Below are positions 1 through 56,939 of a DNA stretch of 64,000 nucleotides, one piece after another (position 1 is the first letter of the stretch; every line of letters starts with the position of its first letter). The DNA is taken from contig NC_079230.1 in NCBI RefSeq assembly GCF_029633865.1, positions 35,309,405-35,373,404 on the forward strand, given 5' to 3'. Source of the stretch: Lampris incognitus (lineage: Eukaryota > Chordata > Actinopteri > Lampriformes > Lampridae). The notes below the pieces were generated by a model, which was not told the DNA's origin, ran no database searches, and was given only the letters and a program-made list of their open reading frames with translations. The translations under genes were made by a program, and so were the position numbers.

Positions 1-2812
1 ATTCATCACACCAGTCTGCAGCATCCCCCTGTCATATCGATTAGCCTTGTGCCAGATTCATCACACCATTCTGCAGCATCCCCCTGTCATATCGATTAGC
101 CTTGTACCAGATTCCTCACACCAGTCTGCAATATCCCCTGTCATATCGACTAGCCTTGTAACAGATTCATCACACCAGTCTGCAGCATCCCCCTGTCATA
201 TCGATTAGCCTTGTACCAGATTCATCACACCAGTCTGCGGCATCCCCCTGTCATATCGATTAGCCTTGTACCAGATTCATCACAGCAGTCTGCAGCATCC
301 CTCTGTCATATCGATTAGCCTTGTAACAGATTCATCACACCAGTTTGCAGCATCCCCCTGTCATATCGATTAGTCTTGTTCCAATTTCATTACACCAGTC
401 TGCAGCATCCCCCTGTTATATCGATTAGCCTTGTACCAGATTCATCACAGCAGTCTGCAGCATCCCTCTGTCATATCGATTAGCCTTGTAACAGATTCAT
501 CACACCAGTCTGCAGCATCCCCATCATATCGATTAGCCTTGTACCACATTCATCACAGCAGTGTGCAGCATCCCCCTGTCATATCGATTAGCCTTGTACC
601 AGATTCATCACAGCAGTCTGCAACATCCCCATCATATCGATTAGCCTTGTACCAGATTCATCACACCAGTCTGGAGCATTCACATCATATCGATTAGCCT
701 TGTACCAGATTCATCACACCAGTCTGCAATATCCCCGTCATATCGATTAGCCTTGTACCAGATTCATCACACCAGTCTACAGCATCCCCCTGTCATATCG
801 ATTAGCCTTGTGCCAGATTCATCACACCAGTCTGCGGCATCCCCCTGTCATATCGATTAGCCTTGTACCAGATTCATCACACCAGTCTGCAGCATCCCCC
901 TGTCATATCGATTAGCCTTGTACCAGATTAATCACACCAGTCTGAAGCATCCCCCTGTCATATCGAGTAGCCTTGTACCAGATTCATCATACCAGTCTGC
1001 AGCATCTCCCTGTCATATCGATTAGCCTTGTGCCAGATTCATCACACCAGTCTGCAGCCTCCCCGTCATATCGATTAGCTTTGTACCAGATTCATCACAC
1101 CAGTCTGCAGCATCCCCCTGTCATATCGATTAGCCTTGTGCCAGATTCATCACACCATTCTGCAGCATCCCCCTGTCATATCGATTAGCCTTGTACCAGA
1201 TTCCTCACACCAGTCTGCAATATCCCCTGTCATATCGACTAGCCTTGTAACAGATTCATCACACCAGTCTGCAGCATCCCCCTGTCATATCGATTAGCCT
1301 TGTACCAGATTCATCACACCAGTCTGCGGCATCCCCCTGTCATATCGATTAGCCTTGTACCAGATTCATCACAGCAGTCTGCAGCATCCCTCTGTCATAT
1401 CGATTAGCCTTGTAACAGATTCATCACACCAGTTTGCAGCATCCCCCTGTCATATCGATTAGTCTTGTTCCAATTTCATTACACCAGTCTGCAGCATCCC
1501 CCTGTTATATCGATTAGCCTTGTACCAGATTCATCACAGCAGTCTGCAGCATCCCTCTGTCATATCGATTAGCCTTGTAACAGATTCATCACACCAGTCT
1601 GCAGCATCCCCATCATATCGATTAGCCTTGTACCACATTCATCACAGCAGTGTGCAGCATCCCCCTGTCATATCGATTAGCCTTGTACCAGATTCATCAC
1701 AGCAGTCTGCAACATCCCCATCATATCGATTAGCCTTGTACCAGATTCATCACACCAGTCTGGAGCATTCACATCATATCGATTAGCCTTGTACCAGATT
1801 CATCACACCAGTCTGCAATATCCCCGTCATATCGATTAGTCTTGTACCAGATTCATCACACCAGTCTGCAGCGTCCCCCTGTCATATTGATTACCCTTGT
1901 ACCAAATTCATCATACCAGTCTCCAGCATCCCCCTGTCATATCGATTAGCCTTGTACCAGATTCATCACACCAGTCTGCAGCCTCCCCGTCATATCGATT
2001 AGCCTTGTGCCAGATTCATCACACCAGTCTGCAATATCCCTTGTCATATCGACTAGCCTTGTAACAGATTCATCACACCAGTCTGCAGCATCCCCCTGTC
2101 ATATCGATTAGCCTTGTACCAGATTCATCACACCAGTCTGCGGCATCCCCCTGTCATATCGATTAGCCTTGTACCAGATTCATCACAGCAGTCTGCAGCA
2201 TCCCTCTGTCATATCGATTAGCCTTGTAACAGATTCATCACACCAGTTTGCAGCATCCCCCTGTCATATCGATTAGTCTTGTTCCAATTTCATTACACCA
2301 GTCTGCAGCATCCCCGTTATATCGATTAGCCTTGTACCAGATTCATCACAGCAGTCTGCAGCATCCCTCTGTCATATCGATTAGCCTTGTAACAGATTCA
2401 TCACACCAGTCTGCAGCATCCCCATCATATCGATTAGCCTTGTACCACATTCATCACAGCAGTGTGCAGCATCCCCCTGTCATATCGATTAGCCTTGTAC
2501 CAGATTCATCACAGCAGTCTGCAACATCCCCATCATATCGATTAGCCTTGTACCAGATTCATCACACCAGTCTGGAGCATTCACATCATATCGATTAGCC
2601 TTGTACCAGATTCATCACACCAGTCTGCAATATCCCCGTCATATCGATTAGTCTTGTACCAGATTCATCACACCAGTCTGCAGCGTCCCCCTGTCATATC
2701 GATTACCCTTGTACCAAATTCATCATACCAGTCTCCAGCATCCCCCTGTCATATCGATTAGCCTTGTACCAGATTCATCACACCAGTCTGCAGCCTCCCC
2801 GTCATATCGATT
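1..2812 (+). repeat. Higher-order repeat, 1089-bp and 812-bp offsets
   Basis: The series of variant monomers at about 1-750 recurs at about 1090-1840 (offset 1089). A shortened third copy at about 2022-2812 matches 1210-2000 at an offset of 812. The diagnostic monomers are one reading GGAGCATTCACATCATATCG (seen near 672, 1761 and 2573), one with CCACATTCATCACAGCAGTG, and one with TTCCAATTTCATTACACC. The third copy lacks about five monomers compared with the first spacing. This is what unequal exchange between misaligned units would leave. Confidence 0.85.
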
Positions 2813-5089
2813 AGCCTTGTACCAGATTCATCACACCAGTCTGAAGGATCCCCGTCGTATCGATTAGCCTTGTGCCAGATTCATCACACCAGTCTGCAGC
2901 ATGCCCCTGTCATATCGATTAGCCTTGTACCAGATTCCTCACACGAGTCTGCAATATCCCCGTCATATCGATTAGCCTTGTACCAGATTCATCACACCAG
3001 TCTGCAGCATCCCCCTGTCATATCGATTAGCCTTGTACCAGATTCATGACACCAGTCTGCAGCATCCCCTTGTCATATGGATTAGCCTTGTAACAGATCC
3101 ATCACAACAGTTTGTCGCAACCCCGTCATATCGATTAGCCTTGTACCAGATTCATCAGACCAGTCTGCAACATCCCCATCATATCGATTAGCCTTGTACA
3201 AGATTCATCACAGCAGTCTGCAGCCTCCCCGTCATATCGATTAGCCTTGTACCAGATTCATCACACCAGTCTGCAGCATCCCCCTGTCATATCGATTAGC
3301 CTTTTGCCAGATTCATCACACCAGTCTGCAGCATCCCCCTGTCCTATCGATTAGCCTTGTAACAGATTCATCACACCAGTCTACAGCATCCCCCTGTTAT
3401 ATGGATTAGCCTTGTACCAGATGCATCACAGCAGTCTGCAGCATCCCCCTGTCATATCGATTAGCCTTGTTCCAGATTCATCACACCAGTCTGCAGCATC
3501 CCCCTGTCATATCGATTAGCCTTGTACCAGATGCATCACACCAGTCTGCAGCATCCCCCTGTCATATCGATTAGCATTGTTCCAGATTCATCACATCAGT
3601 CTGCAGCATCCCCCTGTCATATCGATTAGCCTTGTACCAGATTCATCATACCAGTCTACAGCATCACTCTGTCAAATCGATTAGCCTTGTACCAGATTCA
3701 TCACACCAGTCTGCAGCCTCCCCGTCATATCGACTAGCCTTGTGCCAGATTCATCACACCAGTCTACAGCTTCCCCGTCACATCGATTAGCCTTGTGCCA
3801 GATTCATCACACCAGTCTGCAGCCTCCCCGTCATATCGACTAGCCTTGTGCCAGATTCATCACACCAGTCTACAGCATCCCCGTCATATCGATTAGCCTT
3901 CTACCAGATTCATCATACCAGTCTACAGCATCCCCGTCATATCGATTAGCCTTGTGCCAGATTCATCACTCCAGTCTGCAGCCTGCCCCTGTCATATCGA
4001 TTAGCCTTGTACCAGATTCATCACACCAGTCTGCAGCATCCCCCTGTCATATGGATTAGCCTTGTACCAGATTCATCACACCAGTCTGCAGCATCCCCCT
4101 CTCATATCGATTAGCCTAGTACCAGGTTCATCACACCAGTCTGCAGCCTCCCCCTGTCATATCGATTAGCCTTGTACCAGATTCATCATACCAGTCTGCA
4201 GCATCCCCCTCTCATATCGATTAGCCTTGTACCAGATTCATCACACCAGTCTGCAGCATCCCCCTGTCATATCGATTAGCCTTGTAACAGATTCATCACA
4301 CCAGTCTGCAGCATCCCCGTCATATCGATTAGCCTTGTACCAGATTCATCACACCAGTCTGCAGCCTCCCCCTGTCATATCGACTAGTCTTGTGCCAGAT
4401 TCATCATACCAGTCTACAGCATCCCCGTCACATCGATTAGCCTTGTGCCAGATTCATCACACCAGTCTGCAGCCTCCCCCTGTCATATCGACTAGCCTTG
4501 TGCCAGATTCATCACACCAGTCTACAGCATCCCCGTCATATCGATTAGCCTTCTACCAGATTCATCACACCAGTCTACAGCATCCCCGTCATATCGATTA
4601 GCCTTGTGCCAGATTCATCACTCCAGTCTGCAGCCTGCCCCTGTCATATCGATTAGCCTTGTACCAGATTCATCACACCAGTCTGCAGCATCCCCCTGTC
4701 ATATGGATTAGCCTTGTACCAGATTCATCACACCAGTCTGCAGCATCCCCCTCTCATATCGATTAGCCTAGTACCAGATTCATCACACCAGTCTGCAGCC
4801 TCCCCCTGTCTTATCGATTAGCCTTGTACCAGATTCATCATACCAGCCTGCAGCATCCCCCTGTCATATCGATTAGCCTTGTGCCAGATTCATCACACCA
4901 GTCTGCAGCCTCCCCCTGTCATATCGATTACCCTTGTACCAGATTCATCATACCACTCTACAGCCTCCCCCTGTCATATCGATTAGCCTTGTACCAGAAT
5001 CATCATACCAGTCTACAGCATCCCACTGTTATATCGATTAGCCTTGTACCAGATTCATCACAGCATTCTGTAGCATCCCCCTATCATAT

Positions 5090-5246
5090 TGTAGCCAATT
5101 CAGGGGACAACGCAACCACAGGAGATGCTGCGTCCGGGAAGAAAACCCGTTTCGCCCGCATCGCAGGAGGCATCGCTAACCGTTCGACTAAAGGGTCAGA
5201 CCCGCGACCCAGCGGCCAGCGTGTCTTCTTATCCACGCACGTTACA
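5090..5246. mobile_element. 157-bp LTR-like insertion, copy 1
   Basis: A normal monomer reads CATATCGATT at this point. Here it reads CATAT, then 157 bp of unrelated sequence, then ATATCGATT, so a single ATAT has become a 4-bp flanking duplication. The insertion starts TGTAGCCAATTC and ends GCACGTTACA. TG...CA ends, near-inverted 6-bp termini (TGTAGC and GTTACA) and a 4-bp target duplication suit a very short solo LTR of Ty3/Gypsy type. A small MITE is the main alternative. There is no coding capacity of its own; the 198-codon frame through it is satellite read-through. Orientation is not assigned. Confidence 0.7.
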
Positions 5247-6558
5247 ATATCGATTAGCCTTGTACCAGATTCATCACACCAGTCTGCAGCATCCCCGTCA
5301 TATCGATTAGCCTTGTACCAGATTCATCACACCAGTCTGCAGCCTCCCCCTGTCATATCGATTAGCCTTGTACAAGAATCATCACACCAGTCTGCAGCAT
5401 CCACCTGTCATATCGATTAGCCTCGTCCAAGATTCATCACAGCTGTCTGCAGCAACCCCGTCATATCGATTAACCTTGTACCAGATTCATCACAGCAGTC
5501 TGCAGCATCCCCCTGTCATATCGATTAGCCTTGTACCAGATTCATCACACCAGTCTGCAGCATCCCCCTCTCATATCGATTAGCCTAGTACCAGGTTCAT
5601 CACACCAGTCTGCAGCCTCCCCCTGTCATATCGATTAGCCTTGTACCAGATTCATCATACCAGTCTGCAGCATCCCCCTGTCATATCGATTAGCCTTGTA
5701 CCAGATTCATCACACCAGTCTGCAGCATCCCCCTGTCATATCGATTAGCCTTGTAACAGATTCATCACACCAGTCTGCAGCATCCCCGTCATATCGATTA
5801 GCCTTGTACCAGATTCATCACACCAGTCTGCAGCCTCCCCCTGTCATATCGACTAGTCTTGTGCCAGATTCATCATACCAGTCTACAGCATCCCCGTCAC
5901 ATCGATTAGCCTTGTGCCAGATTCATCACACCAGTCTGCAGCCTCCCCCTGTCATATCGACTAGCCTTGTGCCAGATTCATCACACCAGTCTACAGCATC
6001 CCCGTCATATCGATTAGCCTTCTACCAGATTCATCACACCAGTCTACAGCATCCCCGTCATATCGATTAGCCTTGTGCCAGATTCATCACTCCAGTCTGC
6101 AGCCTGCCCCTGTCATATCGATTAGCCTTGTACCAGATTCATCACACCAGTCTGCAGCATCCCCCTGTCATATGGATTAGCCTTGTACCAGATTCATCAC
6201 ACCAGTCTGCAGCATCCCCCTCTCATATCGATTAGCCTAGTACCAGATTCATCACACCAGTCTGCAGCCTCCCCCTGTCTCATCGATTAGCCTTGTACCA
6301 GATTCATCATACCAGCCTGCAGCATCCCCCTGTCATATCGATTAGCCTTGTGCCAGATTCATCACACCAGTCTGCAGCCTCCCCCTGTCATATCGATTAC
6401 CCTTGTACCAGATTCATCATACCACTCTACAGCCTCCCCCTGTCATATCGATTAGCCTTGTACCAGAATCATCATACCAGTCTACAGCATCCCACTGTTA
6501 TATCGATTAGCCTTGTACCAGATTCATCACAGCATTCTGTAGCATCCCCCTATCATAT

Positions 6559-6715
6559 TGTAGCCAATTCAGGGGACAACGCAACCACAGGAGATGCTGC
6601 GTCCGGGAAGAAAACCCGTTTCGCCCGCATCGCAGGAGGCATCGCTAACCGTTCGACTAAAGGGTCAGACCCGCGACCCAGCGGCCAGCGTGTCTTCTTA
6701 TCCACGCACGTTACA
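6559..6715. mobile_element. 157-bp LTR-like insertion, copy 2
   Basis: Same sequence, ends and ATAT flanks as the copy at 5090, exactly 1469 bp downstream. It arose with the surrounding segment by tandem duplication and is not an independent insertion. It shares the copy-1 diagnostic bases: CAGGGG near the left end, CGCATCGCAGG and GTTCGACTAAAGG. Confidence 0.7.
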
Positions 6716-9649
6716 ATATCGATTAGCCTTGTACCAGATTCATCACACCAGTCTGCAGCATCCCCGTCATATCGATTAGCCTTGTACCAGATTCATCACA
6801 CCAGTCTGCAGCCTCCCCCTGTCATATCGATTAGCCTTGTACAAGAATCATCACACCAGTCTGCAGCATCCACCTGTCATATCGATTAGCCTCGTCCAAG
6901 ATTCATCACAGCTGTCTGCAGCAACCCCGTCATATCGATTAACCTTGTACCAGATTCATCACAGCAGTCTGCAGCATCCCCGTCATATCGATTAGCCTTG
7001 TACAAGATTCATCACACCAGTCTGCAGCCTCCCCCTGTCATATTGATTAGCCGTGTGCCAGATCCATCACACCAGTTTGCAGCATTCCCCTGTCATATCG
7101 ATTAGCCTTGTACCAGATTCATCACACCAGTCTACAGCCTCCCCCTGTCATATCGATTAGCCTTGTACCAGATTCATCACACCAGTCTGAAGCATCCCCC
7201 TGTCATATCGATTAGCCTTGTACCAGATTCATCACAGCAGTCTGCAGCATCCCTCTGTCATATCGAATAGCCTTGTAACAGATTCATCACACCAGTCTGC
7301 AGCATCCCCCTGTCATATCGATTAGTCTTGTACCAATTTCATTACACCAGTCTGCAGCATCCCCCTGTTATATCGATTAGCCTTGTACCAGATTGATCAC
7401 ACCAGTCTGCAGCATCCCTCTGTCATATCGATTAGCCTTATAACAGATTCATCACACCAGTCTGCAGCATCCCCATCATATCGATTAGCCTTGTACCACA
7501 TTCATCACAGCAGTGTGCAGCATCCCCCAGTCATATCGATTAGCCTTGTACCAGATTCATCACAGCAGTCTGCAACATCCCCATCATATCGATTAGCCTT
7601 GTACCAGATTCATCACACCAGTCTGGAGCATTCACATCATATCGATTAGTCTTGTACCAGATTCATCACACCAGTCTCCAGCATCCCCCTGTCATATCGA
7701 TTAGCCTTGTACCAGATTCATCACACCAGTCTGGAGCATTCACATCATATCGATTAGTCTTGTACCAGATTCATCACACCAGTCTGCTGCATCCCCCTGT
7801 CATATCGATTAGCCTTGTACCAGATTAATCATACCAGTCTCCAGCATCCCCCTGTCATATCGATTAGCCTTGTACAAGAGTCATCACACCAGTCTGCAGC
7901 CTCCCCGTCATATCGATTAGCCTTGTACCAGATTCATCACACCAGTCTGAAGGATCCCCGTCGTATCGATTAGCCTTGTGCCAGATTCATCACACTACTC
8001 TGCAGCATGCCCTTGTCATATCGATTAGCCTTGTACCAGATTCCTCACACGAGTCTGCAATATCCCCGTCATATCGATTAGCCTTGTACCAGATTCATCA
8101 CACCAGTCTGCAGCATCCCCCTGTCATATCGATTAGCCTTGTACCAGATTCATCACACCAGTCTGCATCATCCCCCTGTCATATGGATTAGCCTTGTACC
8201 ACATTCATCATTCCAGTCTACAGCATCCCCGTTATATCGATTAGCTTTGTACCAGATTCATCACACCAGACTACAGCATACCCCTGTCATATCGATTAGC
8301 CTTGTACCAGATTCATTACACCAGTCTGCAGCATCCCCCTGTTATATCGATTAGCCTTGTACCAGATTCATCACAAAAGTCTGCAGCATCCCCCTGTCAT
8401 ATCGATTAGCCTTGTAACAGATTCATCACACCAGTCTGCAGCCTCCCCGTCATATTGATTAGCCTTGTACCAGATCCATTACAACAGTTTGCCGCAACCC
8501 CGTTATATCGATTAGCCTTGTACCAGATCCATCACAACAGTTTGCCGCAACCCCGTCATATCGATTAGCCTTGTACCAGATTCATCATACCAGTCTACAG
8601 CATCACTCTGTCATATCGATTAGCCTTGTACCAGATTCATCACACCAGTCTGCAGCCTCCCCCTGTCATATCGACTAGCCTTGTGCCAGATTCATCATAC
8701 CAGTCTACAGCACCCCCGTCACATCGATTAGCCTTGTGCCAGATTCATCACACCAGTCTGCAGCCTCCCCCTGTCATATCGACAAGCCTTTTGCCAGATT
8801 CATCAAACCAGTCTGCAGCATCCCCCTCTCATATCGATTAGCCTAGTGCCAGATTCATCACACCAGTCTGCAGCCTCCCCCTGTCATATCTATTAGCCTT
8901 GTACCAGATTCATCATACCAGTCTGCAGCATCCCCCTGTCATATCGATTAGCCTTGTGCCAGATTCATCACACCAGTCTGCAGCCTCCCCGTCATATCGA
9001 TTACCCTTGTACCAGATTCATCATACCAGTCTACAGCCTCCCCCTGTCATATCGATTAGCCTTGTACCAGAATCATCATACCAGTCTACAGCATCCCCGT
9101 CATATCGATTAGCCTTGTGCCAGATTCATCACACCAGTCAACAGCATCCCGTCATATTGATTAGCCTTGTATCAGATTCATCACAGCAGTCTGCAGCCTC
9201 CCCCTGTGATATTGATTAGCCTTTTGCCAGATTCATCATACCAGTCTGCAGCATCCCCCTGTCATATCGATTAGCCTTGTACAAGATTCATCATACCAGT
9301 CTGCAGCATACCCCTGTCATATCGATTAGCCTTGTACCAGATTCATCACACCAGTCTGCAATATCCCCGTCATATCGATTAGCCTTGTACCACATTCATC
9401 ACACCAGTCTGCAGCATCCCCCTGTCATCTCGATTAGCCTTGTACCAGATTCATCATACCAGTCTGCAGCATCCCACTGTTATATCGATTAGCCTTGTAC
9501 CAGATTCATCACACCAGTCTGCAGCATCCCCCTGTCATATCGATAGCCTTGTACAAGATTCATCATACCAGTCTGCAGCATCCCACTGTTATATCGATTA
9601 GCCTTGTACCAGATTCATCACAGCATTCTGTAGCATCCCCCTATCATAT

Positions 9650-9806
9650 TGTAGCCAATTCGGGGGACAACGCAACCACAGGAGATGCTGCGTCCGGGAA
9701 GAAAACCCGTTTCGCCCGCACCGCAGGAGGCATCGCTAACCGTTCAACAAAAGGGTCAGACCCGCGAGCCAGCGGCCAGCGTGTCTTCTTATCCACGCAT
9801 GTTACA
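9650..9806. mobile_element. 157-bp LTR-like insertion, copy 3
   Basis: Same element at the same monomer position with ATAT flanks. It belongs to a second sequence group with 12487 and 13901: CGGGGG near the left end, CGCACCGCAGG, GTTCAACAAAAGG and GCGAGCCAGC. It has a private change, CACGCATGTT, near its right end. Confidence 0.7.
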
Positions 9807-12486
9807 ATATCGATTAGCCTTGTACCAGATTCAACACACCAGTCTGTAGCATCCCCGTCATATCGATTAGCCTTGTACCAGATTCATCACACCAGTCTGC
9901 AGCCTCCCCCTGTCACATCGATTAGCCTTGTACCAGATTCATCACACCAGTCTGCAGCATCCACCTGTCATATCGATTAGCCTTGTCCAAGATTCATCAC
10001 AGCTGTCTGCAGCAACCCCCTGTCATATCGATTAACCTTGTACCAGATTCATCACAGCAGTCTGCAGCATCCCCCTCTCATATCGATTAGCCTAGTGCCA
10101 GATTCATCACACCAGTCTGCAGCCTCCCCCTGTCATATCGATTAGCCTTGTACCAGATTCATCATACCAGTCTGCAGCATCCCCCTGTCATATCGATTAG
10201 CCTTGTACCAGATGCATCACACCAGTCTGCAGCATCCCCCTGTCATATCGATTAGCCTTGTTCCAGATTCATCACACCAGTCTGCAGCATCCCCCTGTCA
10301 TATCGATTAGCCTTGTACCAGATTCATCATACCAGTCTACAGCATCACTCTGTCATATCGATTAGCCTTGTACCAGATTCATCACACCAGTCTGCAGCCT
10401 CCCCCTGTCATATCGACTAGCCTTGTGCCAGATTCATCATACCAGTCTACAGCATCCCCGTCACATCGATAAGCCTTGTGCCAGATTCATCACACCAGTC
10501 AACAGCATCCCGTCATATTGATTAGCCTTGTATCAGATTCATCACAGCAGTCTGCAGCCTCCCCCTGTGATATTGATTAGCCTTTTGCCAGATTCATCAT
10601 ACCAGTCTGCAGCATCCCCGTCATATCGATTAGCCTTGTACAAGATTCATCATACCAGTCTGCAGCATACCCCTGTCATATCGATTAGCCTTGTACCAGA
10701 TTCATCACACCAGTCTGCAATATCCCCGTCATATCGATTAGCCTTGTACCAGATTCATCACACCAGTCTGCAGCATCCCCGTCATATCGATTAGCCTTGT
10801 ACCAGATTCATCACACCAGTCTGCAGCCTCCCCCTGTCACATCGATTAGCCTTGTACCAGATTCATCACACCAGTCTGCAGCATCCACCTGTCATATCGA
10901 TTAGCCTTGTCCAAGATTCATCACAGCTGTCTGCAGCAACCCCGTCATATCGATTAACCTTGTACCAGATTCATCACAGCAGTCTGCAGCATCCCCATCT
11001 CATATAGATTAGCCTAGCGCCAGATTCATCACACCAGTCTGCAGCCTCCCCCTGTCATATCGATTAGCCTTGTGCCAGATTCATCACACCAGTCTGCAGC
11101 CTCCCCCTGTCATATCGATTACCCTTGTACCAGATTCATCATACCAGTCTACAGCCTCCCCCTGTCATATCGATTAGCCTTGTTCCAGCTTCATCACACC
11201 AGTCTGCAGCATCCCCCTGTCATATCGATTAGCCTTGTACCAGATGCATCACACCAGTCTGCAGCATCCCCCTGTCATATCGATTAGCCTTGTTCCAGCT
11301 TCATCACACCAGTCTGCAGCATCCCCCTGTCATATCGATTAACCTTGTACCAGATTCATCACACCAGTCTGCAGCATCCCCCTCTCATATAGATTAGCCT
11401 AGCGCCAGATTCATCACACCAGTCTGCAGCCTCCCCCTGTCATATCGATTAGCCTTGTGCCAGATTCATCACACCAGTCTGCAGCCTCCCCCTGTCATAT
11501 CGATTACCCTTGTACCAGATTCATCATACCAGTCTACAGCCTCCCCCTGTCATATCGATTAGCCTTGTTCCAGCTACATCACACCAGTCTGCAGCATCCC
11601 CCTGTCATATCGATTAGCCTTGTTCCAGATTCATCAAACCAGTCTTCAGCATCCCCCTGACATATCGATTAGCCTTGTACCAGATTCATCATACCAGTCT
11701 ACAGCATCACTCTGTCATATCGATTAGCCTTGTACCAGATTCATCACACCAGTCTGCAGCCTCCCCCTGTCATATCGACTAGCCTTGTGCCAGATTCATC
11801 ATACCAGTCTACAGCATCCCCGTCACATCGATTAGCCTTGTGCCAGATTCATCACACCAGTCTGCAGCCTCCCCCTGTCATATCGACAAGCCTTTTGCCA
11901 GATTCATCACACCAGTCTGCAGCATCCCCCTCTCATATCGATTAGCCTAGTGCCAGATTAATCACACCAGTCTGCAGCCTCCCCCTGTCATATCGATTAG
12001 CCTTGTACCAGATTCATCATACCAGTCTGCAGCATCCCCCTGTCATATCGATTAGCCTTGTGCCAGATTCATCACACCAGTCTGCAGCCTCCCCCTGTCA
12101 TATCGATTACCCTTGTACCAGAATCATCATACCAGTCTACAACATCCCCGTCATATTGATTAGCCTTGTATCAGATTCATCACAGCAGTCTGCAGCCTCC
12201 CCCTGTGATATTGATTAGCCTTTTGCCAGATTCATCATACCAGTCTGCAGCCTCCCCCTGTCATATCGATTACCCTTGTACCAGAATCATCATACCAGTC
12301 TGCAGCATCCCACTGTTATATCGATTAGCCTTGTACCAGATTCATCACACCAGTCTGCAGGATCCCCCTGTCATATCGATTAGCCTTGTACAAGATTCAT
12401 CATACCAGTCTGCAGCATCCCACTGTTATATCGATTAGCCTTGTACCAGATTCATCACAGCATTCTGTAGCATCCCCCTATCATAT

Positions 12487-12643
12487 TGTAGCCAATTCGG
12501 GGGACAACGCAACCACAGGAGATGCTGCGTCCGGGAAGAAAACTCGTTTCGCCCGCACCGCAGGAGGCATCGCTAACCGTTCAACAAAAGGGTCAGACCC
12601 GCGAGCCAGCGGCCAGCGTGTCTTCTTATCCACGCACGTTACA
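12487..12643. mobile_element. 157-bp LTR-like insertion, copy 4
   Basis: Same element and flanking ATAT repeats, second sequence group. It has a private change AAACTCGTTT where the others read AAACCCGTTT. The monomers before it match those before copies 3 and 5, which supports spread by array duplication. Confidence 0.7.
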
Positions 12644-13900: not shown

Positions 13901-14057
13901 TGTAGCCAATTCGGGGGACAACGCAACCACAGGAGATGCTGCGTCCGGGAAGAAAACCCGTTTCGCCCGCACCGCAGGAGGCATCGCTAACCGTTCAACA
14001 AAAGGGTCAGACCCGCGAGCCAGCGGCCAGCGTGTCTTCTTATCCACGCACGTTACA
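13901..14057. mobile_element. 157-bp LTR-like insertion, copy 5
   Basis: Exactly 4251 bp after copy 3 and part of the 4251-bp-offset duplication. Second sequence group; it keeps CACGCACGTT at the right end. Confidence 0.7.
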
Positions 14058-32500: not shown

Positions 32501-35500
32501 GCCAGATTAATCATAGCAGTCTGCAGCATCCCCCTGTCATATCGACTAGCCTTGTACAAGATTCATCACAGCAGTCTGCAGCATCCCTGTCATATCGATT
32601 AGCCTTGTACCAGATTAATCATAGCAGTCTGCAGCATCCCCCTGTCATATCGACTAGCCTTGTACAAGATTCATCACAGCAGTCTGCAGCATCCCCCTGT
32701 CATATCGATTAGCCTTGTACCAGATTCATCACACCAGTCTGCAGCATCCCCCTGTCATATCGATTAGCCTTGTATCAGATTTAACCCGGCAGTCTGCAGC
32801 CTCCCCGTTATATCGATTAGCCTTGTATCAGATTCATCACAGCAGTCTGCAGCATCCCCCTGTCATATCGACTAGCCTTGTACAAGATTCATCACAGCAG
32901 TCTGCAGCATCCCTATCATATCGACTAGCCTTGTACAAGATTCATCACAGCAGTCTGCAGCATCCCCGTCATATCGATTAGCCTTGTACCAGATTCATCA
33001 TACCAGTCTACAGCATCCCCGTCATATCGATTAGCCTTGTACCAGATTCATCACACCAGTCTGCAGCATCCCCCTGTCATATCGATTAGCCTTGTATCAG
33101 ATTTATCACAGCAGTCTGCAGCCTCCCTGTTATATCGATTAGCCTTGTATCAGATTCATCACAGCAGTCTGCAGCATCCCCCTGTCATATCGATTAGCCT
33201 TGTACCAGATTCATCACACCAGTCTGCCGCAACCCCGTCATATCGATTAGCCTTTTACCAGATTCATCACACCAGTCTGCAGCATCCCCATCATATCGAT
33301 TAGCCTTGTACCAGATCCATCACACCAGTCTGCAGCCTCCCCGTTATATCGATTAGCCTTGTACCAGATGCATCACACCAGTCTGCAGCATCCCCCTGTC
33401 ATATCGATTAGCCTTGTATCAGATTCATCATACCAGTCTGCAGCCTCCCCATCATATCGATTAGCCTTGTATCAGATTCATTACACCAGTCTGCAGCATC
33501 CCCGTTATATCGATTAGCCTTGTACCAGATTCATAACAGCAGTCTGCAGCATCCCCGTCATATCGATTAGCCTTGTATCAGATTCATCACACCACTCTGC
33601 AGCTTACCCGTCATATCGATTAGCCTTGTTCCAGATTCATCACACCAGTCTGAAGCCTCCCCCTGTCATATCGATTAGCATTGTACGAGATTCATTACAC
33701 CAGTCTGCAGCCTCCCCGTCATATCTATTAGCCTTGTACCAGATTAATCATAGCAGTCTGCAGCAACCCCCTGTCATATCGATTAGCCCTGTGCAGGGTC
33801 CATCACACCAGTCTGCGGCATCCCCCTGTCATATCGATTAGCCTTGTACCAGATTCATCACACCAGTCTGCAGCATCCCCGTCATATCGATTAGCCTTGT
33901 ACCAGATTAATCATAGCAGTCTGCAGCATCCCCCTGTCATATCGATTAGCCCTGTGCAGGGTCCATCACACCAGTCTGCAGCATCCCCCTGTCATATCGA
34001 TTAGCCTTGTACCAGATGCATCACACCAGTCTGCAGCATCTCCCTGTCATATCGATTAGCCTTTTACAAGATTAATCACACCAGTCTGCAGCATCCCCGT
34101 CACATCGATTAGCCTTGTGCCAGATGCATCACACCAGTCTGCAGCATCCCTGTCATATCGATTAGCCTTGTAAAAGATTCATCACAGCAGTCTGCAGCAT
34201 CCCCCTGTCATATCGATTAGCCTTGTACCAGATTCATCATACCAGTCTACAGCATCCCCGTCATATCGATTAGCCTTGTACCAGATTCATCACACCAGTC
34301 TGCAGCATCCCCCTGTCATATCGATTAGCCTTGTATCAGATTTATCACAGCAGTCTGCAGCCTCCCCGTTATATCGATTAGCCTTGTACCAGATTCATCA
34401 TACCAGTCTACAGCATCCCCCTGTCATATCGATTAGCCTTGTACCAGATTCATCACACCAGTCTGCAGCATCCCCCTGTCATATCGATTAGCCTTGTATC
34501 AGATTTATCACAGCAGTCTGCAGCCTCCCCGTTATATCGATTAGCCTTGTATCAGATTCATCACAGCAGTCTGCAGCATCCCCCTGTCATATCGATTAGC
34601 CTTGTACCAGATTCATCACACCAGTCTGCCGCAACCCCGTCATATCGATTAGCCTTTTACCAGATTCATCACACCAGTCTGCAGCATCCCCATCATATCA
34701 ATTAGCCTTGTATCAGATTCATTACACCAGTCTGCAGCATCCCCGTTATATCGATTAGCCTTGTGCCAGATTAATCATAGCAGTCTGCAGCATCCCCCTG
34801 TCATATCGACTAGCCTTGTACAAGATTCATCACAGCAGTCTGCAGCATCCCTGTCATATCGATTAGCCTTGTACCAGATTAATCATAGCAGTCTGCAGCA
34901 TCCCCCTGTCATATCGACTAGCCTTGTACAAGATTCATCACAGCAGTCTGCAGCATCCCCCTGTCATATCGATTAGCCTTGTACCAGATTCATCACACCA
35001 GTCTGCAGCATCCCCCTGTCATATCGATTAGCCTTGTATCAGATTTATCCCGGCAGTCTGCAGCCCCCCCGTTATATCGATTAGCCTTGTACCAGATTCG
35101 TCACACCAGTCTGCCGCAACCCCGTCATATCGATTAGCCTTTTACCAGATTAATCACACCAGTCTGCAGCATCCCCATCATATCGATTAGCCTTGTACCA
35201 GATTCATCACAGCAGTCTGCAGCCTCCTCCTGTCATATCGATTAGCGTTGTACCATATTCAGCACACCAGTCTGCAGCCTCCCCCTGTTATATCGATTAG
35301 CCTTGTACCAGATGCATCACACCAGTCTGCCGCAACCCTGTCATATCGATTAGCCTTTTACCAGATTCATCACACCAGTCTGCAGCATCCCCATCATATC
35401 GATTAGCCTTGTACCAGATTAATCATAGCAGTCTGCAGCATCCCCCTGTCATATCGATTAGCCTTGTATCAGATTCATCATACCAGTCTGCAGCCTCCCC

Positions 35501-38500
35501 ATCATATCGATTAGCCTTGTATCAGATTCATTACACCAGTCTGCAGCATCCCCGTTATATCGATTAGCCTTGTACCAGATTCATCACAGCAGTCTGCAGC
35601 ATCCCCGTCATATCGATTAGCCTTGTATCAGATTCATCACACCACTCTGCAGCTTACCCGTCATATCGATTAGCCTTGTTCCAGATTCATCACACCAGTC
35701 TGCCGCAACCCCGTCATATCGATTAGCCTTGTACCAGATTCATCACATCAGTCTGAAGCATCCCCATCATATCGATTAGCCTTGTACCAGATTCATCCCA
35801 CCAGTCTGCAGCCTCCCCCTGTCATATCGATTAGCCTTGTACGAGATTCATTACACCAGTCTGCAGCCTCCCCGTCATATCGATTAGACTTGTACCAGAT
35901 TAATCATAGCAGTCAGCAGCATCCCCCTGTCATATCGATTAGCCCTGTGCAGGGTCCATCACACCAGTCTGCAGCATCCCCCTGTCATATCGATTAGCCT
36001 TGTACCAGATTCATCACACCAGTCTGCAGCATCCCCGTCATATCGATTAGCCTTGTACCAGATTAATCATAGCAGTCTGCAGCATCCCCCTGTCATATCG
36101 ATTAGCCCTGTGCAGGGTCCATCACACCAGTCTGCAGCATCCCTGTCATATCGATTAGCCCTGTGCAGTGTCCATCACACCAGTCTGCAGCATCCCCATC
36201 ATATCGATTAGCCTTGTACCAGATTCATCACACCAGTCTGCAGCCTCCCCCTGTCATATCAATTAGCCTTGTACGAGATTCATTACACCAGTCTGCAGCC
36301 TCCCCGTCATATCGATTAGCCTTGTACCAGATTAATCATAGCAGCCTGCAGCATCCCCCTGTCATATTTATTAGCCCTGTGCAGGGTCCATCACACCAGT
36401 CTGCAGCATCCCCCTGTCATATCGATTAGCCTTGTACCAGATGCATCACACCAGTCTGCAGCATCTCCCTGTCATATCGATTAGCCTTGTACAAGATTAA
36501 TCACACCAGTCTGCAGCATCCCCGTCACATCGATTAGCCTTGTGCCAGATTCATCACACCAGTCTGCAGCATCCCTGTCATATCGATTAGCCTTGTAAAA
36601 GATTCATCACACCAGTCTGCAGCATCCCCCTGTCATATCGATTAGCCTTGTACCAGATTCATCATACCAGTCTACAGCATCCCCCTGTCATATCGATTAG
36701 CCTTGTACCAGGTTCATCACACCAGTCTGCAGCATCCCCCTGTCATGTCGATTAGCCTTGTATCAGATTTATCACAGCAGTCTGCAGCCTCCCCGTTATA
36801 TCGATTAGCCTTGTACCAGATTCATCATACCAGTTTGCAGCATCCCCCTGTCATATCGATTAGCCTTGTACCAGATTCATCACACCATTCTACAGCCTCC
36901 CCCTGTCATATCGATTAGCCTTGTACTAGATTCATTACACCAGCCTGCAGCATCCCCCTTTTATATCGGTTAGCCTTGTACCAGATTCATCACAGCAGTC
37001 TGTAGCATCCCCCTGTCATATCGATTAGCCTTGTACCAGATTCATCATACCAGTCTACAGCATCCCCCTGTCATATCGATTAGCCTTGTACCAGATTCAT
37101 CACACCAGTCTGCAGCATCCCCCTGTCATATCGATTAGCCTTGTATCAGATTTATCACAGCAGTCTGCAGCCTCCCCGTTATATCGATTAGCCTTGTATC
37201 AGATTCATCACAGCAGTCTGCAGCATCCCCCTGTCATATCGATTAGCCTTGTACCAGATTCATCACACCAGTCTGCCGCAACCCCGTCATATCGATTAGC
37301 CTTTTACCAGATTCATCACACCAGTCTGCAGCATCCCCATCATATCGATTAGCCTTGTATCAGATTCATTACACCAGTCTGCAGCATCCCCGTTATATCG
37401 ATTAGCCTTGTGCCAGATTAATCATAGCAGTCTGCAGCATCCCCCTGTCATATCGACTAGCCTTGTACAAGATTCATCACAGCAGTCTGCAGCATCCCTG
37501 TCATATCGATTAGCCTTGTACCAGATTAATCATAGCAGTCTGCAGCATCCCCCTGTCATATCGACTAGCCTTGTACAAGATTCATCACAGCAGTCTGCAG
37601 CATCCCCCTGTCATATCGATTAGCCTTGTACCAGATTCATCACACCAGTCTGCAGCATCCCCCTGTCATATCGATTAGCCTTGTATCAGATTTATCCCGG
37701 CAGTCTGCAGCCTCCCCGTTATATCGATTAGCCTTGTACCAGATTCGTCACACCAGTCTGCCGCAACCCCGTCATATCGATTAGCCTTTTACCAGATTAA
37801 TCACACCAGTCTGCAGCATCCCCATCATATCGATTAGCCTTGTACCAGATTCATCACAGCAGTCTGCAGCCTCCTCCTGTCATATCGATTAGCGTTGTAC
37901 CATATTCAGCACACCAGTCTGCAGCCTCCCCCTGTTATATCGATTAGCCTTGTACCAGATGCATCACACCAGTCTGCCGCAACCCTGTCATATCGATTAG
38001 CCTTTTACCAGATTCATCACACCAGTCTGCAGCATCCCCATCATATCGATTAGCCTTGTACCAGATTAATCATAGCAGTCTGCAGCATCCCCCTGTCATA
38101 TCGATTAGCCTTGTATCAGATTCATCATACCAGTCTGCAGCCTCCCCATCATATCGATTAGCCTTGTATCAGATTCATTACACCAGTCTGCAGCATCCCC
38201 GTTATATCGATTAGCCTTGTACCAGATTCATCACAGCAGTCTGCAGCATCCCCGTCATATCGATTAGCCTTGTATCAGATTCATCACACCACTCTGCAGC
38301 TTACCCGTCATATCGATTAGCCTTGTTCCAGATTCATCACACCAGTCTGCCGCAACCCCGTCATATCGATTAGCCTTGTACCAGATTCATCACATCAGTC
38401 TGAAGCATCCCCATCATATCGATTAGCCTTGTACCATATTCATCCCACCAGTCTGCAGCCTCCCCCTGTCATATCGATTAGCCTTGTACGAGATTCATTA

Positions 38501-40600
38501 CACCAGTCTGCAGCCTCCCCGTCATATCAATTAGACTTGTACCAGATTAATCATAGCAGTCTGCAGCATCCCCCTGTCATATCGATTAGCCCTGTGCAGG
38601 GTCCATCACACCAGTCTGCAGCATCCCCCTGTCATATCGATTAGCCTTGTACCAGATTCATCACACCAGTCTGCAGCATCCCCGTCATATCGATTAGCCT
38701 TGTACCAGATTAATCATAGCAGTCTGCAGCATCCCCCTGTCATATCGATTAGCCCTGTGCAGGGTCCATCACACCAGTCTGCAGCATCCCTGTCATATCG
38801 ATTAGCCCTGTGCAGTGTCCATCACACCAGTCTGAAGCATCCCCATCATATCGATTAGCCTTGTACCAGATTCATCACACCAGTCTGCAGCCTCCCCCTG
38901 TCATATCAATTAGCCTTGTACGAGATTCATTACACCAGTCTGCAGCCTCCCCGTCATATCGATTAGCCTTGTACCAGATTAATCATAGCAGTCTGCAGCA
39001 TCCCCCTGTCATATCGATTAGCCCTGTGCAGGGTCCATCACACCAGTCTGCAGCATCCCCCTGTCATATCGATTAGCCTTGTACCAGATGCATCACACCA
39101 GTCTGCAGCATCTCCCTGTCATATCGATTAGCCTTGTACAAGATTAATCACACCAGTCTGCAGCATCCCCGTCACATCGATTAGCCTTGTGCCAGATTCA
39201 TCACACCAGTCTGCAGCATCCCTGTCATATCGATTAGCCTTGTAAAAGATTCATCACACCAGTCTGCAGCATCCCTCTGTCATATCGATTAGCCTTGTAC
39301 CAGATTCATCATACCAGTCTACAGCATCCCCCTGTCATATCGATTAGCCTTGTACCAGGTTCATCACACCAGTCTGCAGCATCCCCCTGTCATATCGATT
39401 AGCCTTGTATCAGATTCATCACACCAGTCTGCAGCATCCCCGTCATATCGATTAGCCTTGTACCAGATTAATCATAGCAGTCTGCAGCATCCCCCTGTCA
39501 TATCGATTAGCCCTGTGCAGGGTCCATCACACCAGTCTGCAGCATCCCTGTCATATCGATTAGCCCTGTGCAGTGTCCATCACACCAGTCTGAAGCATCC
39601 CCATCATATCGATTAGCCTTGTACCAGATTCATCAAACCAGTCTGCAGCCTCCCCCTGTCATATCAATTAGCCTTGTACGAGATTCATTACACCAGTCTG
39701 CAGCCTCCCCGTCATATCGATTAGCCTTGTACCAGATTAATCATAGCAGTCTGCAGCATCCCCCTGTCATATCGATTAGCCCTGTGCAGGGTCCATCACA
39801 CCAGTCTGCAGCATCCCCCTGTCATATCGATTAGCCTTGTACCAGATGCATCACACCAGTCTGCAGCATCTCCCTGTCATATCGATTAGCCTTGTACAAG
39901 ATTAATCACACCAGTCTGCAGCATCCCCGTCACATCGATTAGCCTTGTGCCAGATTCATCACACCAGTCTGCAGCATCCCTGTCATATCGATTAGCCTTG
40001 TAAAAGATTCATCACACCAGTCTGCAGCATCCCTCTGTCATATCGATTAGCCTTGTACCAGATTCATCATACCAGTCTACAGCATCCCCCTGTCATATCG
40101 ATTAGCCTTGTACCAGGTTCATCACACCAGTCTGCAGCATCCCCCTGTCATATCGATTAGCCTTGTATCAGATTTATCACAGCAGTCTGCAGCCTCCCCG
40201 TTATATCGATTAGCGTTGTACCAGATTCATCATACCAGTTTGCAGCATCCCCCTGTCATATCGATTAGCCTTGTACCAGATTCATCACACCATTCTACAG
40301 CCTCCCCCTGTCATATCGATTAGCCTTGTACTAGATTCATTACACCAGCCTGCAGCATCCCCCTTTTATATCGGTTAGCCTTGTACCAGATTCATCACAG
40401 CAGTCTGTAGCATCCCCCTGTCATATCGATTAGCCTTGTACCAGATTCATCATACCAGTCTACAGCATCCCCCTGTCATATCGATTAGCCTTGTACCAGA
40501 TTCATCATACCAGTCTGCAGCATCCCGCTGTCATATCGATTAGCCTTGTACCAGATTCATCACACCAGTCTGCAGCCTCCCCGTCATATCGATTAGCCTT
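17600..40600 (+). repeat. About 8-kb higher-order unit, three tandem copies
   Basis: A landmark series (a TGCCAGATTAATCATAGCAG monomer followed by ACAAGATTCATCACAGCAG monomers) recurs at 19381, 21649, 24237, 27370, 29310, 32497, 34761 and 37408. Other rare series give matching offsets: 20514, 28499 and 33626; 25258, 30331 and 38429; 22668 and 35782; 23587 and 36703. These fit a superunit of about 8.0 kb starting near 19381, 27370 and 32497. The middle copy is only 5127 bp because it lacks one internal landmark block (about 2.9 kb). Variant monomers with the inverted arms CCCTG...CAGGG (GCCCTGTGCAGGGTCC) are confined mainly to this part of the array. Boundaries are approximate. Confidence 0.8.
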
Positions 40601-42783
40601 GTACTAGATTCATCACAGCAGTCTGCAGCATCCCCCTGTCATATCGACTAGCCTTGTACAAGATTCATCACAGCAGTCTGCAGCATCCCCCTGTCATATC
40701 GATTAGCCTTGTGCCAGATTCATTACACCAGTCTGCAGCATCCCCGTTATATCGATTAGCCTTGTACCAGATTCATCATACCAGTTTGCAGCATCCCCCT
40801 GTCATATCGATTAGCCTTGTACCAGATTCATCACACCATTCTACAGCCTCCCCCTGTCATATCGATTAGCCTTGTACTAGATTCATTACACCAGCCTGAA
40901 GCATCCCCCTTTTATATCGGTTAGCCTTGTACCAGATTCATCACAGCAGTCTGTAGCATCCCCCTGTCATATCGATTAGCCTTGTACCAGATTCATCATA
41001 CCAGTCTAGAGCATCCCCCTGTCATATCGATTAGCCTTGTACCAGATTCATCATACCAGTCTGCAGCATCCCGCTGTCATATCGATTAGCCTTGTACCAG
41101 ATTCATCACACCAGTCTGCAGCCTCCCCGTCATATCGATTAGCCTTGTACTAGATTCATCACAGCAGTCTGCAGCATCCCCCTGTCATATCGATTAGCCT
41201 TGTACCAGATTCATCACACCAGTCTGCAGCATCCCCCTGTCATATCGATTAGCCTTGTGCCAGATTCATTACACCAGTCTGCAGCATCCCCGTTATATCG
41301 ATTAGCCTTGTACCAGATTCATCACACCAGTCTGCAGCTTATCCCCGTCATATCGATAAGCCTTGTATCAGATTCATCACACCAGTCTGCAGTATCCCCC
41401 TGTCATATCGCTTTGCCTTGTACCAGATTCATCACACCAGTCTGCAGCATCCCGTCATATCGATTAGCCTTGTATCAGATTCATCACAGCAGTCTGCAGC
41501 ATCCCCCTGTCATATCGATTAGCCTTGTACCAGATTCATCATACCAGTCTACAGCATCCCCCTGTCATATCGATTAGCCTTGTACCAGGTTCATCACACC
41601 AGTCTGCAGCATCCCCCTGTCATATCGATTAGCCTTGTATCAGATTTATCACAGCAGTCTGCAGCCTCCCCGTTATATTGATTAGCCTTGTACCAGATTC
41701 ATCATACCAGTTTGCAGCATCCCCCTGTCATATCGATTAGCCTTGTACCAGATTCATCACACCAGTCTGCAGCATCCCGAACATATCGATTAGCCTTGTA
41801 ACAGATTCATCACAGCAGTCTGCAGCCTCCCCCTGTCATATCGATTAGCCTTGTACCAGATTCATCACACCAGTCTGCAGCCTCCCCGTCATATCGATTA
41901 GCCTTGTACCAGATTCATTACACCAGTCTGCAGCATCCCCGTTATATCGATTAGCCTTGTACCAGATTCATCACACCAGTCTGCAGCATATCCCCGTCAT
42001 ATCGATTAGCCTTGTACCAGATTCATCACACCACTCTGCAGCTTACCCGTCATATCGATTAGCCTTGTACCAGATTCATCACACCAGTCTGCCGCATCCC
42101 CCTGTCATATCGATTAGCCTTGTACCAGATTCATCACACCAGTCTGCAGCATCCCCCTGTCATATCGATTAGCCTTGTGCCAGATTCATCACACCAGTCT
42201 GCAGCATCCCCCTGTCACATCGATTAGCCTTGTACCAGATTCATCACACCAGTCTGCAAATCCCCGTCATATTGATTAGCCTTGTACCAGATTCATCACA
42301 CCAGTCTGCAGCATCCCCCTGTCATATCGATTAGCCTTGTATCAGATTCATCACAGCAGTCTGCAGCATCCCCCTGTCATATCGATTAGCCTTGTACCAA
42401 ATTCATTACACCAGTCTGCAGCATACCCGTTATATCGATTAGACTTGTACCAGATTCATCACACCAGTCTGCGGCTTATCCCCGTCATATCGATTAACCT
42501 TGTATCAGATTCATCACACCAGTCTGCAGCATCCCCCTGTCATATCGCTGTGCCTTGTACCAGATTCATCACACCCGTCTGCAGCATCCCTGTTATATCG
42601 ATTAGCCTTGTACCAGATTCATCACACCAGTCTGCAGCATATCCCCGTCATATCGATTAGCCTTGTACCAGATTCATCACACCAGTCTGCAGCATCCCTG
42701 TTATATCGATTAGCCTTGTACCAGATTCATCACACCAGTCTGCAGCATCCCCCTGTCATATCGATTAGCCTTGTACCAGATTC

Positions 42784-43124
42784 TGGTGAGGGAAGAGAAC
42801 AGTGCCTAGACGATACCTTCACTAGTATACACCACGATATATTTCCACTCAAGATGTCCTAAAATGACTCTAAGACATGTCCAGTTTGTAGAATAGCTGG
42901 ATTCTTAAAGTATCTTACAGTAATCAAGGGACATAAAGCCAGTCCTCCACAGGAAGTGCCCTCAGAGAGAGTTCGGCTGATTGTGAGGAAATTGATGAAT
43001 ATGTGCAATTAAAGAATTTCAAAGCAATGGGAGATTGTTTGAAGTGTAGTTAGATAGGTCATTTATCTTACCCTTAAGGGTAACTTCACAGATAGCAAAG
43101 ACAAAATGTGCATTGAGGAATACC
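42784..43124. other. Unique sequence at the right edge of the array
   Basis: The array ends abruptly after ATTC at 42783 and is followed by non-repetitive sequence beginning TGGTGAGGGAAG. No intact gene is seen. A broken plus-strand reading near 43021-43065 has a C-x2-C-x4-H pattern after AMGD, interrupted by a stop. It could be a remnant of a retrotransposon gag zinc knuckle, but this is weak. The stretch lies in the inferred bap18 intron 2. Confidence 0.5.
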
Positions 43125-43440
43125 TGACAAGTCCCCCCCCCCCTTTTTCTCCCCAATTGTATCTGGCCAATTGCCCCACTCTTCCGAGCTGTCCCGGTCG
43201 CTTTTCCACCCTCTCTGCCCCATCTGGTGAGGACGTAGCGCGTTGGAGAATCACACTATTCCCCGCAACCCCCCCCCCCCGAATAGGCGCCCCGACCCAC
43301 AAGAGGAGGCGCTAGTGCAGCGACCAGGAGAAATACCCACATCCGGCTTCCCACCCGCAGACACGGCCAATTATGTCTGTAGGGACGCCGGACCAAGCCG
43401 GTAGGCAACGGAGCAGACCGCCAGCACGCTCGGCGGAAGC
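43125..43440 (-). mobile_element. Teleost tRNA-derived SINE, internally deleted
   Basis: The plus strand begins with a C/T-rich stretch and TTTTTCTCCCCAATTG, continues through CCGAGCTGTCCCGGTCGC and GAGGAGGCGCTAGTGCAGCG, then ACACGGCCAATTATGTCTG, and ends GTAGGCAACGGAGCAGACCG. I recognise this order as a very common fish SINE read backwards. The tRNA-like head therefore lies at the right and the tail at the left, giving minus-strand orientation. The B-box part of the head and a central block are missing compared with the usual family layout, so the copy is dead. Short open frames on both strands here are incidental. Confidence 0.75.
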
Positions 43441-43677
43441 CCTTACGTTAGAACTGTGTTTACCCTGGTCGCTTAGCTGACTCACACACACTTGCACAAG
43501 ACGTTTAACAACATACTGACATTTCTGTTAGTGCAATATTGTCAGTGTCAAGTGGTCAGTAAAAGGAAACCTTATTAGCGTGTGAGAGAAGGGAAGAGAA
43601 GAGTTTGCCTGGAGGCGTTTAGTTTGTGCTCATTTGCTTGTGTGTTGGTTGTATTGTGGCGTGTGGGCGTGTGTTAC
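43441..43677. other. bap18 intron 2, first bases after exon 2
   Basis: On the minus strand this starts at the splice donor GTAACA at 43677-43672 directly after exon 2. It is G/T-rich on the plus strand and holds no recognisable gene or repeat. It separates exon 2 from the SINE and the array. Confidence 0.6.
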
Positions 43678-43772
43678 CCTGCAGGGCTGGAGTCCGCCAC
43701 TGGGTGCAGCTGCATGGTGAGCTCTCCTAGCTTTGTGAAGGCAGCTCCTGCTGCAGAGAAGATCTCCCCAAC
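43678..43772 (-). CDS. bap18: bap18 (C17orf49) exon 2, partial gene
   Basis: Minus-strand exon of 95 bp: 31 full codons plus two bases. It reads VGEIFSAAGAAFTKLGEL followed by TMQLHPVADSSPA, which I recognise as the conserved N-terminal part of BAP18, the BPTF-associated 18-kDa protein of NURF and MLL/SET1 chromatin complexes. The acceptor is TGTGAG before GTTGGG, and the donor is GG followed by GTAACA, leaving a split glycine codon as in the vertebrate protein. It joins in phase 0 to exon 1 at 53376-53396. The SANT-like DNA/histone-binding region lies in later exons, which are not in the window. The codons are intact, with no stop or frameshift. The acceptor's pyrimidine tract is weak (TTCTTGTTGTTATCTGTGAG), but the match to the protein makes the exon call strong. 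Confidence 0.93.
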
Positions 43773-45625: not shown

Positions 45626-45639
45626 AGATCTTCATCTTT

Positions 45640-51900: not shown

Positions 51901-51907
51901 CCTCCAG

Positions 51908-53370: not shown

Positions 53371-53375
53371 CTTAC

Positions 53376-54320: not shown

Positions 54321-54359
54321 GTAAGTACTGCTGTTATTTGGTCACATCGTCTTCTTCTT

Positions 54360-56936: not shown

Positions 56937-56939
56937 TAT

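Follow-up and report, generated by a model that had tools for sequence, protein, structure and literature searches.

A minisatellite array of more than 42.7 kb that likely lies inside intron 2 of an intact bap18 gene

Introduction

Intronic tandem arrays are known from human CACNA1C, from the fish gene ppfia1 and from the Y-loop introns of flies. The human CACNA1C intronic VNTR (TRACT) is described in a preprint as an array of a 30-bp unit with a length of 3-30+ kb (PMC13131567). In characiform ppfia1, CharSat01-52 is reported with 23 (about 1.3 kb) and 34 (about 1.8 kb) imperfect units (PMC8210747), and for the Drosophila Y-linked genes kl-3 and kl-5 transcription was shown across gigantic, satellite-filled introns (PMC6508621, PMC11207136).

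Here, a 64-kb window of Lampris incognitus (the whole stretch of DNA that was analyzed, 64,000 nucleotides) is described, in which a tandem array faces exon 2 of the chromatin gene bap18. The array is a large member of this known kind. It resembles the CACNA1C VNTR, as described in that preprint, in its minisatellite-sized unit, in its length of up to tens of kilobases and in its apparent position in an intron of a vertebrate protein-coding gene, but it differs from the 30-bp-unit human array in exceeding 42.7 kb and in carrying solo-LTR-like inserts that were copied along. CharSat01-52 is of the same kind and also belongs to a fish gene, whereas its reported unit numbers compare with about 770 in the present array. 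As in kl-3 and kl-5, a transcript would have to cross intronic satellite DNA; those genes are described as male-germline Y genes with megabases of simple satellites, while the present case concerns tens of kilobases in a widely conserved chromatin gene whose transcription at this locus is predicted, in contrast to CACNA1C, a host gene reported as expressed at its VNTR. The new features are a solo-LTR-like insert of 157 bp, present five times, and a core in which multi-kb blocks are nearly identical to one another. If bap18 is intact, this would be a very large intronic minisatellite in a conserved vertebrate gene, longer than the range reported at CACNA1C, and would serve as a natural test of how transcription and splicing deal with G-rich tandem repeats over tens of kilobases.

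Results and Discussion

Extent and units of the array

Tandem Repeats Finder returned a single array in the window, with a period of 55, 790.1 copies and 86% matches:

1..42783, no strand assigned: minisatellite/satellite array, unit of about 55 bp (lengths of 55 and 53 bp prevail), continuing beyond the left edge

By cyclic alignment the array was divided into 791 segments, 771 of them clear of five inserts and 20 touching these inserts. One of the 771 is a 4-base scrap, which leaves about 770 true units and bears out the number of monomers given in an earlier sequence-only reading of the window. Lag identity across the array peaked at 0.60 at lag 55; in positions 42,784-64,000 no lag from 20 to 399 exceeded 0.28. 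The units fall in the range of 10-100 bp and run head to tail in a single orientation, as in a minisatellite, and no inverted copy was seen among 324 BLAST rows (self-matches counted in). The array that had been placed before exon 2 is real and forms one head-to-tail run, but its right end is at 42,783 and not at 43,772, and 894 bp of non-array DNA separate it from the exon.

When the flank (42,784-64,000) was searched for an origin of the unit, no copy of two half-unit patterns was found with up to five edits, and BLAST yielded a single 21-bp match (E 0.38). An exact scan with a 23-base stretch of the unit gave 0 occurrences in viral contigs and 0 in genome contigs, from which own-genome records were possibly excluded. 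Rfam gave 0 matches at gathering score on 42,001-64,000. A coding array was rejected because the prevailing unit lengths of 55 and 53 bp break the frame, although open reading frames in the array reach 198 aa. The unit as an RNA hairpin was also unsupported, as folding of both strands of two dimer stretches gave z values of -1.06 to 1.03.

Inserts and block structure

The inserts and the subdivisions of the array are as follows:

5090..5246, no strand assigned: 157-bp insert, copy 1 of 5, within one unit, solo-LTR-like
6559..6715, no strand assigned: 157-bp insert, copy 2, identical to copy 1
9650..9806, no strand assigned: 157-bp insert, copy 3, 6 differences from copy 1
12487..12643, no strand assigned: 157-bp insert, copy 4, 6 differences from copy 1
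13901..14057, no strand assigned: 157-bp insert, copy 5, 5 differences from copy 1
17001..41000, no strand assigned: homogenised core, from 1-kb window comparison and exact pairs
40501..42500, no strand assigned: diverged right array edge, from 1-kb windows starting at 40,501, 41,001 and 41,501

All five insert copies have TGTA...TACA ends and ATAT on each side, as in a solo LTR with its TSD; a sixth copy was not found in the window. In the homogenised core, each of the 47 1-kb windows (starts 17,001 to 40,001) had at least one array partner with 95-100% identity over at least 900 bp, and the longest exact pair within the array measures 1,372 bp (at 18,480 and 31,596). At the right edge, a partner at 95% or above was detected for none of the three 1-kb windows. 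Mean unit-to-unit divergence was 10.6-13.0% over the 44 spacings tested.

The five insert copies and the near-identical multi-kb core blocks suggest that the array grew by block duplication, of which they would be the traces, and together they form a readable record of this growth. In such a step, multi-kb blocks would have been duplicated via unequal exchange or break-induced copying.

Exons 1 and 2 of bap18

To the right of the array, the following parts of bap18 were recognized:

42784..43677, minus strand: non-array sequence, predicted part of intron 2 beside the donor
43678..43772, minus strand: exon 2, 95 bp, encodes VGEIFSAAGAAFTKLGELTMQLHPVADSSPA(G), ends in phase 2
43773..53375, minus strand: intron 1, 9.6 kb, containing transposon remnants
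53376..53396, minus strand: coding part of exon 1, MTSASTK, then GTAAGA

A search with the exon 2 frame, which could find only proteins of up to about 75 residues, gave matches for 19 of 19 candidates (E 1.6e-13 to 1.1e-10), one of them named Chromatin complexes subunit BAP18, and PF27797 is precomputed on every one of these proteins. Over 32 residues, 12 of them were identical, six had one difference and one had two. These database matches uphold the naming of the exons as bap18 in the earlier reading; for exon 2 the assignment is secure. The assignment of exon 1 fits as well: MTSASTK is joined directly to VGEIF in two of the 19 proteins (P0017 and P0019), and a codon-degenerate pattern for MTSASTK followed by GT has a single site in the 64 kb across the two strands, at 53,396. 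The coordinates and matching phases proposed for both exons also stood, with GT/AG borders and phase 0 followed by phase 2, and the donor of the minus-strand exon 2 does face the array on its left. The product of exons 1 and 2 corresponds to the conserved N-terminal segment of bap18. In P0019 (Synaphobranchus kaupii) the protein continues SSPAG/AKWTDTEIE, which is the predicted join of exons 2 and 3 in the predicted phase, and its tail matches a Myb-like domain (E 2.5e-5).

Exon 3 (SANT/Myb-like) was not found in the window, in agreement with the statement that none is found before position 1; with an approximate query sequence, the best tblastn match among those listed had an E of 0.88 and lay in the array inserts. 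In the remainder of 42,784-64,000, BLAST gave no match to the 894 bp beside the donor.

The neighbouring gene rnasek lies 650 bp from bap18 exon 1 on the opposite strand:

54046..54120, plus strand: rnasek exon 1, in head-to-head orientation to bap18
54238..54320, plus strand: rnasek exon 2, intact

Later rnasek exons were not found to the right of exon 2 within the window. RNASEK adjoins BAP18 in a table of a cattle region (PMC4486961), and human RNASEK and BAP18 are given as a readthrough pair in another table (PMC6862657).

The array is likely to be part of intron 2 of an intact bap18. We further consider it probable that it expanded in place within this intron while the gene stayed under constraint, and that the gene continues with exon 3 beyond the left end of the repeats. 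The window itself displays the array, the first two exons with their phases, the direction of the donor and the rnasek exons; block growth and an exon 3 at the left would complete this account.

Transcription and splicing signals

Read in the direction of bap18, the array has a purine-rich sense strand with a GC skew of +0.354 over 42.8 kb. This strand holds one AATAAA in 42.8 kb and five acceptor-like sites, where 20 base shuffles averaged 25. Given these properties, the intron could tolerate the array in this direction, although the scarcity of strong signals is a single property of one repeated unit and counts as one observation, not hundreds. RNA polymerase would make a G-rich transcript over more than 43 kb, which would delay bap18 output and favour R-loops; as the array is nearly devoid of polyadenylation and acceptor signals in the sense direction, splicing of exon 2 to exon 3 could still succeed across it.

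The donor of exon 2 (AGG/GTAACA) is weak, with 4.99 bits compared with 7.76 for exon 1 in a rough scoring table. By the same approximate table, 552 GT sites on the array sense strand reach at least the score of the exon 2 donor (mean in shuffles, 387), and ten sites, at 9.24, score above both real bap18 donors. The weak donor and the stronger GT sites of the array count against the preferred explanation, as does the failure to find exon 3 in the window.

Alternative explanations

Exons 1 and 2 could instead be a recently severed fragment of bap18. The array, for example a subtelomeric or pericentromeric one, would then mark a rearrangement breakpoint, and the complete copy would be located elsewhere, perhaps as a genome-duplication paralogue. 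We regard this as unlikely but worth weighing: it would accommodate the lack of exon 3 in the window and an array that runs off the left edge and has a size suited to a heterochromatic block, but both bap18 exons, their splice borders and their phases are intact, and so are exons 1 and 2 of rnasek. Intact exons exclude only an old death of the gene, as 38 codons without a departure from the commonest amino-acid form bound neutral decay since any such death at about 3.6%. For a break by the array that is no older than the separation of the insert copies, zero exon changes would still be expected with a probability of 0.20-0.25, and this figure counts against growth inside an intact gene. An assembly misjoin, in which array and bap18 locus lie apart in the animal, is very improbable. 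Long tandem arrays are described as a source of assembly error (PMC6868369), but the window contains no N bases, and near-identical partners are lacking for the tested units beside the junction, a pattern that a natural edge of an array would also show. The diverged junction opposes a misjoin only weakly, because 20 of the 84 array windows (17 of these 20 in the left part) are equally diverged.

The least credible of the alternatives is a functional array, kept by selection, whose length or sequence tunes bap18 expression as a timer or via R-loops or chromatin. The strong strand asymmetry of the 42.8 kb would suit such an element, and long alleles of the CACNA1C VNTR are reported to go with lower CACNA1C expression in fibroblasts, but the same preprint gives expression as unchanged with VNTR length in 47 other tissues (PMC13131567). 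Moreover, the divergence between units resembles that of an unconstrained array, with no sign of array conservation here, and the RNA folding of the two dimer stretches was ordinary. Returning to growth in place within a constrained bap18, a bolder form of it is doubtful: intron 2 might hold a still-growing, strand-asymmetric array of more than 42.7 kb as a small counterpart of the fly Y loops, with transcripts crossing about 770 G-rich repeats and allelic length setting bap18 dosage or timing.

Two further searches concerned coding sequence in the window. The 39-residue translation of exons 1 and 2 matched 0 families in a local Pfam scan, and its PDB matches were of no use (nine sequences, all with E of at least 0.2, eight deaminase and one perchloric acid soluble protein). 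The matches of a retrotransposon reading frame, taken together with bap18 and rnasek, fit a teleost: the best match was 83% among 120 of 498 hits listed (7,995 candidates scored), and the best named among the matches listed were Aldrovandia affinis (68-84%), Labeo rohita (73%) and Coilia grayii (66%), alongside invertebrates.

The bap18 exons and possible continuation of the gene

The part of bap18 that was recognised lies to the right of the minisatellite array:

53,376-53,396, minus strand, bap18 exon 1
43,678-43,772, minus strand, bap18 exon 2
1-42,783, array of ~55-bp units, running off the left edge

All of the 19 candidate proteins (19/19) matched the open frame of exon 2, with E values of 1.6e-13 to 1.1e-10; each carries the precomputed Pfam domain PF27797, and one, from dromedary, is named Chromatin complexes subunit BAP18. 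Of the 19, 12 agree fully with the window across the 32 residues VGEIF...SSPAG, six differ by one residue and one differs by two. In P0017 and P0019, two database proteins matching this frame, the exon 2 segment is immediately preceded by MTSASTK; the second of these, P0019, is an eel protein (Synaphobranchus kaupii) and continues past the segment as AKWTDTEIE. By these joins the exon 1-2 and exon 2-3 phases (0 and 2) agree with the window; for exons 1 and 2 the sequence-only reading had already claimed matching phases. A codon-degenerate search of the window for MTSASTK followed by GT gave a single minus-strand match, at 53,396.

Exon 3 of bap18 (the SANT exon) was not found in the window. 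Among the matches listed for the exon 3 part of the protein, the best in the window had an E value of 0.88 and fell within the 157-bp inserts of the array, in line with the earlier statement that no exon 3 is found before position 1. None of 84 nonsynonymous sites departs from the commonest form, and neutral decay since any death of the gene would thus amount to at most about 3.6%, exon conservation setting only a bound. The Poisson probability of zero changes is 0.20-0.25 if the elapsed time corresponds to half the divergence between insert copies, and 0.005 if it corresponds to half the mean unit divergence, the latter figure presupposing an array that has aged at its present site. Because of these probabilities and the decay bound, an old death of bap18 appears unlikely; exon conservation would not speak against a recent one.

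Structure and growth of the array

Tandem Repeats Finder gave a single array over 1-42,783 with a period of 55 and 790.1 copies, a figure that takes in the five foreign inserts as units. Cyclic alignment yielded 771 insert-free segments (55 bp, n=444; 53 bp, n=311; 52 bp, n=8; 54 bp, n=6; 56 bp, n=1; and one 4-base scrap), close to the ~770 tandem monomers counted previously. The copies share one orientation, as none of 324 BLAST rows was inverted and a unit anchor had 0 matches on the opposite strand of the window.

The mean divergence between units was 10.6-13.0% across 44 tested spacings of 1 to 300 units, insert-touching segments being included except those of at most 40 bp, and its minimum was at a spacing of 243 units (~13.1 kb). 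Since this range holds at all 44 spacings, adjacent units are no more similar than far-apart ones. Ungapped blocks of 1.0-2.5 kb with 97.7-98.8% identity recur at lags of, for example, 5,127, 8,098 and 13,112-13,116 bp. Exact pairs in the array reach 1,372 bp, the longest starting at 18,480 and 31,596. In 84 1-kb windows, taken in steps of 500 over 1-42,500, a partner was defined as 95-100% identity over at least 900 bp elsewhere in the array. Such partners were detected for 64 of the 84: 47/47 with starts at 17,001-40,001, 17/34 left of 17,001 and 0/3 at the right edge. This pattern suggests that the array grew through duplication of multi-unit blocks.

The five 157-bp inserts start at 5,090, 6,559, 9,650, 12,487 and 13,901, with no further copies in the rest of the window. 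They end in TGTA...TACA with ATAT on either side, sit at an identical position within the unit, and differ from copy 1 over 157 positions by 0 (copy 2), 6 (copies 3 and 4) and 5 (copy 5), as if one insertion event had subsequently been copied along with the surrounding array. These solo-LTR-like inserts (5090-14057) serve as markers of block duplications within the array's left third.

The right end at 42,783 falls within a unit; no half-unit copies with up to 5 edits were found to the right of it, and the window contains only the letters A, C, G and T. The diverged right edge beside unique DNA resembles a natural array edge and argues against a misjoin at 42,783, only weakly so because 17 of the 34 left-part windows are also diverged.

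Transcript signals in the array

A purine-rich, G-skewed composition favours R-loops. Read in the sense of bap18, the array is 60% purine with a GC skew of +0.354. In the same sense it contains one AATAAA and no ATTAAA, against nine and one in the 9.6-kb intron 1. Acceptor-like sites were scored as YAG after at least 10 of 14 pyrimidines, a rough rule as it would miss the genuine exon 2 acceptor, which has exactly 10 pyrimidines but reads GAG and so fails at Y. The table compares the counts.

Splice-site-like signals (shuffles, mean of 20 base shuffles for acceptors and mean in shuffles for donors)
Signal; array, bap18 sense; shuffles; intron 1
Acceptor-like sites; 5 (opposite direction, 84); 25; 36
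Donors >7.7 bits; 10; 97; 5
Donors at least as strong as the weak exon 2 donor; 552; 387; 36

Weak donors are accordingly in excess in the array (552 vs a mean of 387). RNA folding was ordinary in two dimer stretches on both strands. The composition and all of the signal counts stem from one repeated unit in one orientation and therefore amount to a single observation: the array lies in the orientation that an intron would better tolerate.

Comparison with known intronic repeats

Minisatellites and satellites within introns are already known. In the excerpts of the sources concerned, human CACNA1C carries an intronic VNTR of 3-30+ kb (PMC13131567) and the last ppfia1 intron of a fish carries CharSat01-52 of ~1.3 kb (PMC8210747), compared with an array here that fills 1-42,783 and runs off the left edge; fly Y-linked introns hold megabase satellites (PMC6508621; PMC11207136). 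No report of this array was found in the open-access literature searched, in which the narrower searches on minisatellites or satellites within teleost introns yielded no paper. If bap18 is intact, the array is a large new example among these intronic repeats.

rnasek and surroundings

Two exons of rnasek were identified beside bap18:

54,046-54,120, plus strand, rnasek exon 1
54,238-54,320, plus strand, rnasek exon 2

The match had an E value of 4.5e-16, and Pfam V-ATPase_su_f was hit with E 2.4e-6 (28.1 bits vs a cut-off of 27). The starts of bap18 and rnasek lie head to head, 650 bp apart (53396-54046). RNASEK adjoins BAP18 in a cattle region table (excerpt of PMC4486961), and the two are given as a human readthrough pair in the excerpted text of PMC6862657, by which readthrough genes are generally on one strand; the human pair should therefore be on one strand. 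A local inversion probably separates the human and window lineages at bap18/rnasek. No match to exon 3 of rnasek was found over the 9.7 kb that remain to the right (54321-64000), so rnasek would also have a swollen intron or be broken. The best weak match to this part of the protein (33%, E 0.008), at 52,406-52,531 on the other strand within bap18 intron 1, is probably due to chance.

Intron 1 also contains inverted stretches at 43927-44132 and 52174-52376, which are 77% identical and 8.4 kb apart end to end; they look like one DNA transposon that may have been inflated by nested insertions. To the right, a 1.2-kb palindrome (55734-56942, 94% inverted self-identity) carries a transposase-like HTH piece and adjoins retrotransposon-like frames.
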